Assembly (NCBI RefSeq): GCF_034067285.1
Contig: NZ_CP139286.1
Location: 186,001-250,000 of the forward strand
Length of the DNA stretch: 64,000 nucleotides
Direction: 5' to 3'
DNA from: Acinetobacter pittii
GTDB taxonomy: Bacteria > Pseudomonadota > Gammaproteobacteria > Pseudomonadales > Moraxellaceae
In this document: positions 46,895-58,067 of the stretch, in pieces
Layout: each line of letters starts with the position of its first letter
How positions within the stretch are numbered: position 1 is the stretch's first letter
Notes under the pieces: model-generated
Told to the model about the DNA's origin: nothing
Databases searched by the model: none
The model's input: the letters and a program-made list of their open reading frames with translations, nothing else
Program-made: the position numbers and the translations under genes

Positions 46895-47320
46895 ATGTCA
46901 GCCAAATATCAAGGATCGTGTTTATGTGGAGCGGTGAGCTACCAAAGTGAAGCGGAGCCACGTTATAGCTTTAATTGCCACTGTCGGGATTGTCAGAAGG
47001 CCACAGGTTCAGCCTATGCACCCATCGCTTTTTTTCACCAATCTGAATTGAAAGTAAGTGGCGAGCTTAAATATTTTGAGTCTTTAGGATCTTCTGGCCG
47101 ACCTATTAAACGAGCTTTTTGCCCGACTTGTGGTTCCCAGCTTTTTGGCTTACCTGAAATTGCTCCTGAAATGATTTCAATACGTGCAGGTACTTTGGAT
47201 GACCCTAGTCTTTATCAGCCTAGAGCAGAGGTGTTTGTGAGCCAAGCCTATGCTTGGGATACCCTGAATCCACAGCTTAAACACTTTGAAAAAATGATAG
47301 AGAAGAGAAAAGAAGGATAG
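46895..47320 (+). CDS. GFA (glutathione-dependent formaldehyde-activating-like) protein
   Basis: Small zinc protein of 141 residues with the GFA/CENP-V fold. Three cysteine groups bind metal: GSCLCGAVSY, NCHCRDCQKATGS and FCPTCGSQLFGLP. Family members were first linked to formaldehyde-glutathione condensation, though most have unknown roles. AGGATG precedes the start and the gene is 8 bases after the methyltransferase, so it is the last gene of that operon. Directly after its stop begins the Rsm-like RNA locus. Confidence 0.88.
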   Translation: MSAKYQGSCLCGAVSYQSEAEPRYSFNCHCRDCQKATGSAYAPIAFFHQSELKVSGELKYFESLGSSGRPIKRAFCPTCGSQLFGLPEIAPEMISIRAGTLDDPSLYQPRAEVFVSQAYAWDTLNPQLKHFEKMIEKRKEG

Positions 47321-47337
47321 AGGTCGTCTGACAAGCT

Positions 47338-47355
47338 CGTAAGCCTTTTCTTACA
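47338..47355 (+). promoter_or_regulatory. GacA-box-like upstream activating sequence
   Basis: CGTAAG-CCTTTT-CTTACA matches the GacA consensus TGTAAG-N6-CTTACA in 11 of 12 defined bases with the correct six-base spacer. Its centre is about 65 bases upstream of the predicted start of the following small RNA, the kind of distance seen in rsm promoters. Confidence 0.75.
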
Positions 47356-47411
47356 GACATTCGGGAAAATGACTTCTTTCTATGACCCTACAAATTACCT
47401 ATGATGAACTC

Positions 47412-47539
47412 ATCAGGAACAGGAAGTTCCGAAACGTAAAACAACAATAATAAGTTTAAGCATCAGGACGTGAGGTATTACAGGAAGTGTACCTAGTAAC
47501 GAAATACGGAAAAAGCCCAACAGGATGTTGGGCTTTTTT
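47412..47539 (+). ncRNA. Candidate CsrA/RsmA-binding small RNA (RsmX/Y/Z type)
   Basis: A possible -10 box TATGAT (47400-47405) predicts a start near 47412. The ~128-nt product holds five AGGA motifs and one ACGGA. Hairpin 1 (47416-47430) is GGAAC/GTTCC with loop AGGAA. Another AGGA at 47465-47468 sits between short arms. Hairpin 3 (47474-47493) has the stem GGTA..AC/GT..TACC with loop AGGAA. The terminator (47512-47539) has a 10-base stem AAAGCCCAAC/GTTGGGCTTT, with loop AGGAT and six T residues. Repeated GGA in loops, a GacA box and ~125 nt length are the features of RNAs that sequester CsrA/RsmA. Confidence 0.75.
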
Positions 47540-47548
47540 CATTTTGTA

Positions 47549-47926
47549 TTAATAAACTTGTTTTCCACCCAATACTGCACAATCAACAGGTGTATTCCAT
47601 TTCACCGCAGTACCTGTAAGTACGGGACGAACAATACGCCATGGCCAGAAGCCAAATCTTTGGCTTTGGTGATAATTAATCACTACATCTGCACCGTATT
47701 TACGAGCAATGATCGCTAATTTAGGTTTTACTTCTTCAAACCCCCCATAAGTTCCTTTTGCGGCTTTAATACGTTTAATAGATTTATAGTGCTCTGCTGA
47801 AGGAGTACCCTCAATTAAGCAAATAGGTGGGTTTGCAATAGTTTGTATTTGAGAAGCTGTATCTTGAGCAAATGCAGTTAAAGGTAAAGCTAGAAATAAA
47901 GTAGGTAAAATAAAACGGAGTCTCAT
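47549..47926 (-). CDS. Hypothetical secreted protein
   Basis: A 125-residue protein with a clear signal peptide (MRLRFILPTLFLALPLTAFA, cleavage before QDT). The mature part has about 105 residues with two Cys residues (PPICL and DCAV) that could form a disulfide and a segment GTYGGFEEVKPKLAIIARKYGAD. That segment vaguely recalls small envelope proteins of the heavy-metal-binding YbjQ or DUF4156 type, which is not a firm match. It is convergent with the candidate small RNA, whose terminator also has a T tract on the minus strand. The region upstream (47927-48193) is AT-rich and empty. Confidence 0.7.
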   Translation of the reverse strand: MRLRFILPTLFLALPLTAFAQDTASQIQTIANPPICLIEGTPSAEHYKSIKRIKAAKGTYGGFEEVKPKLAIIARKYGADVVINYHQSQRFGFWPWRIVRPVLTGTAVKWNTPVDCAVLGGKQVY

Positions 47927-57904: not shown

Positions 57905-58018
57905 TTTTGGTGGCGAACTCGTTCGTCCCCCTTCGTAGCGGTAGGGCGAGGGAGGGACGCCTTGTGCGTGCTGATTCTTGTGTGTCAGTCTGTCAACCTT
58001 CTCTCGTTCTGCCACCAT
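57905..58018 (+). ncRNA. C4-type antisense RNA candidate
   Basis: The outer stem GGTGGC (57909-57914)/GCCACC (58011-58016) extends by GAAC/GTTC. The inner stem CGTCCC (57924-57929)/GGGACG (57954-57959) encloses a GC-rich hairpin. The loops CTTGTGTGT (57977-57985) and CTGTCAA (57990-57996) are complementary to the paired sequences TTGACAG and ACACACAAG, which occur on both sides: 57863-57869 with 57879-57887, and 58022-58028 with 58049-58057. The second target copy overlaps the ribosome binding site of the ORF at 58068. This is the a'/b' and a1b1/a2b2 layout of C4 antisense RNAs of phages P1 and P7. Confidence 0.65.
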
Positions 58019-58067
58019 CATTTGACAGTGATCGGGTAGAACTCCTTTACACACAAGGAGTCCGCAC

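Follow-up and report, generated by a model that had tools for sequence, protein, structure and literature searches.

A multicopy family of candidate GacA-activated, CsrA-sequestering small RNAs in Acinetobacter chromosomes and plasmids

The RsmX/RsmY/RsmZ RNAs of Pseudomonas and the CsrB/CsrC RNAs of enterobacteria have a common anatomy: each is a stand-alone terminated RNA with GGA motifs in its loops and a GacA/UvrY-type box upstream, and there are several copies per genome. The Pseudomonas GacA box has the consensus TGTAAG-N6-CTTACA. The small RNA (sRNA) of Acinetobacter pittii considered here shares the terminated RNA, the GGA loops, the upstream box and the multicopy state with these systems, but it has no sequence-level membership in their families, and Acinetobacter copies are also found in tandem (locus L031) and on plasmids.

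The functional idea already exists for Acinetobacter (PMC numbers refer here to those parts of the papers that were available). A. baylyi ADP1 profits from the loss of gacA only when csrA is present, and in the model proposed by that study sequestering non-coding RNAs, none of them named, stand between GacA and CsrA (PMC12455638). A network figure for ADP1 shows a ‘CsrB-like small RNA’ binding CsrA (PMC12442408). Two RsmA-regulating sRNAs, with ends 119 and 139 nt apart, were predicted in ADP1 (PMC5568370, Table 2), and the same paper cites an earlier prediction of such sRNAs (its ref. 12). These belong to the same genus and have the same proposed function as the present RNA; the comparison is by description, they are predictions only, and plasmid copies in Acinetobacter go unmentioned in the available part of that paper. 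A review states that GacSA controls 674 genes in A. baumannii (PMC5295007), and on rich medium csrA is reported to be essential (PMC12802169). Among the best-ranked papers of the literature search none links the present sRNA family to CsrA, a result that does not prove the absence of such a link. The present analysis adds the family as such, together with its structure, box and spread. A study by Singh et al., reportedly in mBio in 2025, may overlap with this work.

The A. pittii locus

The window, i.e. the whole 64-kb stretch of A. pittii DNA that was analysed, contains a GFA-family gene (46895–47320) that precedes the sRNA on the same strand. R1, the covariance model of the sRNA family, matches the window copy with 140.6 bits at genome position C1:233408–233543, which corresponds to window positions 47408–47543. 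The elements of the locus are given below; counts of 55 refer to the family alignment A1, and Art5 is an A. baumannii transcript, both of which are described further on.

47338..47355, + strand: GacA-type upstream box CGTAAG-N6-CTTACA (sequence read directly)
47400..47405, + strand: -10 hexamer TATGAT (sequence read directly)
47412..47541, + strand: predicted sRNA of ~130 nt, with putative ends (R1 match and size of Art5)
47416..47430, + strand: hairpin 1, GGAAC-AGGAA-GTTCC (fold and covariation; GGA kept in 55/55 copies)
47461..47472, + strand: hairpin 2, weak, three pairs, loop CAGGAC (covariation; GGA kept in 54/55)
47474..47493, + strand: hairpin 3, loop region ACAGGAAGT (fold and covariation; GGA kept in 52/55)
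47508..47540, + strand: hairpin 4, the Rho-independent terminator with T-run, loop AGGAT (covariation; GGA kept in 52/55)

A first-pass annotation had described the box and the TATGAT hexamer, both of which are present, as well as a terminator with GGA in its loop, which is found as a hairpin plus T-run at 47508–47540. It had also reported six GGA motifs. All six are in place, but only four are conserved loop motifs (47422–47424, 47466–47468, 47483–47485 and 47523–47525); the GGA at 47416–47418 is part of the hairpin 1 stem, and the one at 47508–47510 is missing in most copies of A1. Three loops of the window copy read ACAGGA(A/T)GT, which is close to the site preferred by CsrA. There is no good -35 hexamer at the sRNA promoter, and a promoter scan gave zero sigma-70-type pairs. 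On the + strand of 47301–47560 the ATG reading frames reach 22 codons at most and, judged from sequence only, the 130-nt segment is non-coding and stand-alone, with its own terminator.

The GGA content of the segment is beyond what composition would give. Six or more GGA per 130 nt were found in 22 of 2000 dinucleotide shuffles and five AGGA in four of 2000, and 0.1% of random 130-mers from the window have six or more GGA. The fold has a z-score of -4.3, which by eye is mostly owed to the terminator.

An Rfam search with the window sRNA yielded no Csr/Rsm family at the gathering threshold: RsmY scored 18 bits, where 57 would be needed, and RsmX, PrrB_RsmZ, CsrB and CsrC gave no match at E values up to 10. 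Neither the other copies nor the other RNA classes described below gave a Csr/Rsm family. Membership in these Rfam families was rejected; thus the first-pass view that the RNA follows the RsmX/Y/Z and CsrB/C plan holds for the anatomy of the functional class and fails for family membership.

The A. baumannii counterpart of this RNA is very probably a transcript already known from RNA-seq. In strain AB5075, Art5, Art56, Art75 and Art77 form ‘Group 3’, which ranks second in size among the groups of homologous sRNAs; Art5 is a 130-nt RNA on the + strand (236876–237005), Art56 is on the - strand, and Art75 and Art77 are on the + strand (PMC5320573; Weiss, 2016). Art5 has the same size and strand as the window sRNA, which lies at ~233412 in its genome, and the order and strands of the four Group 3 members agree with those of A. 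pittii copies, a match drawn from coordinates, size and order and not from sequence. Each genome also has a C4-type RNA shortly downstream of the first copy: RF01695 here and art6, a C4-like member of Group 1, in AB5075 (PMC5320573). The C4 antisense RNA of the window is at 57934–58019 (+), with 52.1 bits. CsrA, CsrB, GacA and Rsm do not occur in the main text of PMC5320573. In an A. baumannii record aligned with the window, the block 47339–47559, from the box to just beyond the terminator, aligns at 91%, the 28 nt preceding it and the gene following it do not align, and the upstream genes align at 88.6%, with the order of GFA-family gene and sRNA kept.

Copies, promoter box and structure of the family

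R1 matches all 37 same-genus genomes searched and, weakly (E 9e-5 to 5e-3), five of the 21 genomes that were searched from other families. A second sample comprised 119 genomes of the same taxonomic family. Among those listed, 26 are of the same genus, and 23 of these match R1 at E 1e-4; one genome from another genus matches marginally and a further 75 have no match. The three same-genus genomes without a match at this threshold keep GacA, and therefore no joint loss of gacA and the RNA was observed. When 47330–47545 was compared with 58 genomes by BLASTN, many of the same-genus genomes had two or more strong matches among those listed. A pattern scan of named-species genomes returned 85 stretches, and 79 of the 80 listed are titled Acinetobacter; the exception is a copy with a perfect box on a 5.8-kb contig of a Pseudomonadaceae metagenome-assembled genome.

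The A. pittii genome has six strong R1 copies, at 233408 (+, the window copy), 2805849 (-), 3487521 (+), 3572636 (+), 3572892 (+) and 3574073 (+), and the next match has an E value of 0.008. A. baylyi DSM 14961 has eight matches at E <1e-5 and a ninth at E 0.0017. At locus L031 three sRNA copies are in tandem; a C4 match is found nearby, at L031:1283–1369. Four phage records also match, two of them at four places, but all are ‘Acinetobacter phage MD-2021a’, and nothing is concluded from them because bacterial DNA is suspected in these records.

Taken by itself, the box is weak evidence. It agrees with TGTAAG-N6-CTTACA at 11 of 12 positions and is the sole match at one mismatch or fewer in the window, where two mismatches or fewer give eight matches against 3.5 expected. 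Genome-wide, the degenerate box is not enriched at one mismatch or fewer (26 sites, against 37 for a reversed control pattern), which favours a chance occurrence. This is outweighed by the spacing: the box is convincing because its fixed distance to the RNA recurs in independent copies. With two mismatches or fewer to TGTA(A/C)G-N6-C(T/G)TACA as the measure, 54 of the 55 A1 copies have the box 49–53 nt before the aligned start (29 exact), and the remaining one, L041:4542, has a box with three mismatches. All six copies of the A. pittii genome have it at 52–53 nt, three of them exactly. Among the held-out chromosomal copies (19 of 31 matches, 12 weak ones of 27.9 bits or less being left out), 17 of 19 have it 52–53 nt before the model start, 10 exactly, although the counts are not fully independent because several held-out copies are mutually close relatives. 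As to the two misses, L112 is real and lacks the box, and L114:1725–1849 has too little upstream sequence fetched. Only ~0.1% of control positions, at three adjacent offsets, equal this measure. A GacA/UvrY-type upstream box at fixed spacing, as in the known functional class, is therefore found.

Whether GacA itself is the regulator deserves comment. The family box often reads TGTACG/CTTACA and is thus not strictly the Pseudomonas GacA box, and the GacA-type response-regulator model finds 18 matches in the A. pittii genome, so that a CsrA-binding sRNA controlled by some other regulator could be imagined. This is improbable in view of the 11/12 agreement of the window box with the GacA site and of the fact that each of the 37 same-genus genomes has a GacA homologue scoring at least 261 bits. 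The A. pittii homologue scores 267.8 bits, below the curated cut-off of 280, and the next-best match in the genome has 82.1. GacS, searched for with PF09984, is unconfirmed at 20.4 bits against a cut-off of 22.1.

The structure of the RNA was examined in A1, which consists of 55 distinct copies from 50 loci (BLAST hits of at least 61 query bases, identical stretches dropped). In the four-hairpin structure 93.4% of cells pair, compared with 37–51% for control structures slid by 1–3 columns; hairpin 2 is weak, with 75% of its cells paired. Fifteen pairs changed on both sides (shuffles 6.0 ± 1.2), as did 71 cells (19.0 in shuffles), and not one of the five covariation measures was reached by any shuffle, with the caveats that the structure was drawn from the same sequences and that the shuffles ignore relatedness. 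Several GGA motifs thus lie in hairpin loops, again as in the functional class. As the first-pass annotation had anticipated for an RNA of this kind, the GGA-in-loop positions and the box are conserved across Acinetobacter and the linkers drift.

It is this pattern of conservation that bears on whether the RNA might instead be a base-pairing sRNA of the Hfq type, with the GGA loops as kiss-complex or anti-Shine-Dalgarno seeds and not CsrA sites. AGGA resembles part of the Shine-Dalgarno sequence, so that pairing of the loops with CU-rich mRNA is conceivable; multicopy sRNA groups are also known in A. baumannii (PMC5320573). The strongly conserved unpaired blocks, however, are the four AGGA loops, whose GGA is kept in 55, 54, 52 and 52 of 55 copies, whereas mean linker conservation falls to 0.69. 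In addition, the study of the Hfq interactome of A. baumannii does not mention Art5, Art68, Art70, Art71, Art75 or Art77 in its main text, nor ABUWs005, 061, 074, 081 or 083; ABUWs076 occurs there once (PMC12802169). A base-pairing role is less probable still than a different regulator.

That the segment is a mere terminator or attenuator of the upstream same-strand GFA-family gene, with no separate RNA, can be dismissed with near certainty: the gene order kept in A. baumannii and a best weak Rfam match to Thr_leader would suit it, but the latter has 29.3 bits, far under the gathering score of 55, so that membership was rejected, the RNA has its own box and -10, and copies with box, hairpins and terminator adjoin unrelated genes on chromosomes and plasmids.

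The window RNA is best explained as a stand-alone GacA-activated, CsrA-sequestering sRNA, to which we assign a probability of about 0.9. Phosphorylated GacA would bind the box and activate a promoter that has a good -10 and no good -35. The 130-nt RNA is predicted from comparison and covariation to fold into four AGGA-loop hairpins, three of them as ACAGGA(A/U)GU, and paired AGGA sites would bind CsrA dimers and withdraw CsrA from mRNAs. A. pittii has one CsrA gene, and the first 57 residues of its product are nearly identical to the CsrA of PDB 1y00. The six copies, together with a second RNA class and the plasmid copies described below, may be additive on one CsrA pool. The first-pass interpretation of a GacA-controlled, CsrA-sequestering sRNA is supported, with GacA and CsrA as putative partners.

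Other box-bearing RNAs in the genome

Seven exact box sites are present in the A. pittii genome, and three of them precede R1 copies. A fourth, at 3238589, precedes on the minus strand an unrelated terminated RNA with nine GGA motifs (L118, C1:3238359–3238609). Of 25 same-genus genomes, 22 have a relative of L118, always as a single match; a box at 0–1 mismatch is present in all 20 loci examined of these 22 matches, and each has 6–9 GGA. The first-pass annotation had regarded the window sRNA as the missing RNA arm of the Gac/Csr system. It is not the one missing RNA, because the genome has six copies as well as this second GGA-rich, box-bearing class.

Two exact boxes, at 3312680 and 3313127, precede two further terminated segments (L119, C1:3312459–3313149, -) beside an open reading frame which, read by eye, we take to be recD. 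These segments are found, at least in part, in 23 of 24 same-genus genomes. Their GGA content is modest, with three each in the stretches inspected, and they are therefore not called CsrA sponges. The seventh exact box (1203051–1203068) is between open reading frames, and no terminated GGA-rich RNA was seen beside it; it is possibly another GacA target or a chance occurrence.

Relatives of the L118 and L119 RNAs in A. baumannii are detected transcripts, since the published Northern probes ABUWs074, ABUWs076 and ABUWs077 match them on the right strand with 4, 2 and 2 mismatches of 25 (PMC5320573), compared with 8–10 mismatches at a control locus. In evolved A. baylyi lines, repeated mutations were found in a predicted sRNA between recD and ACIAD0400, and csrA too was often mutated (PMC11426457). 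This sRNA may be the L119 locus.

Plasmid-borne copies

The spread on plasmids is the least expected feature of the family and the one that most merits testing. A search with a plasmid copy matches 422 of 72,556 PLSDB records, 368 of them over at least 80% of the query; the host genera are Acinetobacter (418), Klebsiella (two), Citrobacter (one) and Escherichia (one). The window copy as query gave 142 matches, all in Acinetobacter, and since at least three of these are chromosome-sized (3.66–4.09 Mb), PLSDB counts may include chromosomes. An even sample of 60 of the 422 matches has no record above 352 kb, and in 52 of them the match extends over 85% or more of the query. No annotated gene lies under the sRNA match in the first 40 of the 422 listed. 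Examples on small plasmids are L120 (5.7 kb), L121 (7.5 kb) and L122, which has two copies. In nine of 17 fetched records (16 from the plasmid collection and one from E. coli) a copy adjoins RelE/ParE-type toxin-antitoxin genes. The E. coli record, L135, is plasmid NZ_CP171639.1 of strain TC24 and carries a single copy, whose box is exact, next to a catalase gene and insertion sequences; it is the sole case among 5426 E. coli genomes.

The box is retained on plasmids: of the 18 plasmid-type hits tested, among them that in the E. coli record, 17 have it at 52–53 nt, eight of them exactly (18 of 34 matches tested, with 15 weak ones of 36.2 bits or less and the second L122 copy left out). The hit without it is a truncated one from Citrobacter that retains the terminator part alone. 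In a tree of 80 copies without support values (55 from A1, 17 from plasmids and eight of the 19 held-out copies), plasmid copies are placed at several positions, with chromosomal and draft-contig copies as neighbours.

The structural evidence is more varied. GGA is present in all four loops of 10 of the 17 aligned plasmid copies, and the other seven each lack one: the third loop in L125:2220 and L132–L134, the fourth in L125:1498 and L135, and the first in L131. In L125:1498–1626 and L135:5993–6127 the AGGAT of the terminator loop is replaced by ATCCT, as would result from an inversion of the hairpin, and that GGA is therefore gone. Covariation in the 17 copies is mixed: two-sided changes are seen in 23 cells (8.7 in shuffles) and in seven pairs (5.2 in shuffles, a count of seven being reached by 66 of 500), and further pair types number 13 against 16.3, which is below the shuffles and was reached by 499 of 500. 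Because seven of 17 copies have lost a GGA loop and the covariation is mixed, a role of the plasmid copies as CsrA sponges is considered likely and not more than that.

The known parallel is RsmQ, a plasmid-borne CsrA-family protein by which a plasmid acts on the host Csr/Rsm system (PMC9928087), as is proposed here. RsmQ is a protein, whereas Acinetobacter plasmids would carry a CsrA-binding RNA instead; the plasmid sRNAs, if working, complement the known plasmid-borne CsrA-like proteins. One plasmid-borne region, no. 29 on pAB2 of ATCC 17978, is reported to be expressed in planktonic cells but silent in biofilms (PMC5538643). On balance we lean towards the view that sponge RNAs for CsrA, under the control of the host's GacA, form part of the accessory cargo of Acinetobacter plasmids, frequently next to toxin-antitoxin genes, and that the plasmid complement would set the gain of the Gac/Csr system.

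Naming these RNAs makes the gap between GacA and CsrA in Acinetobacter testable, with the first class present in six copies and the second at one locus in this genome. If the reading of the plasmid copies is true, each plasmid would sense the host GacSA signal and add to the release of CsrA-repressed genes, and mobile elements would shift a global post-transcriptional switch by gene dosage.
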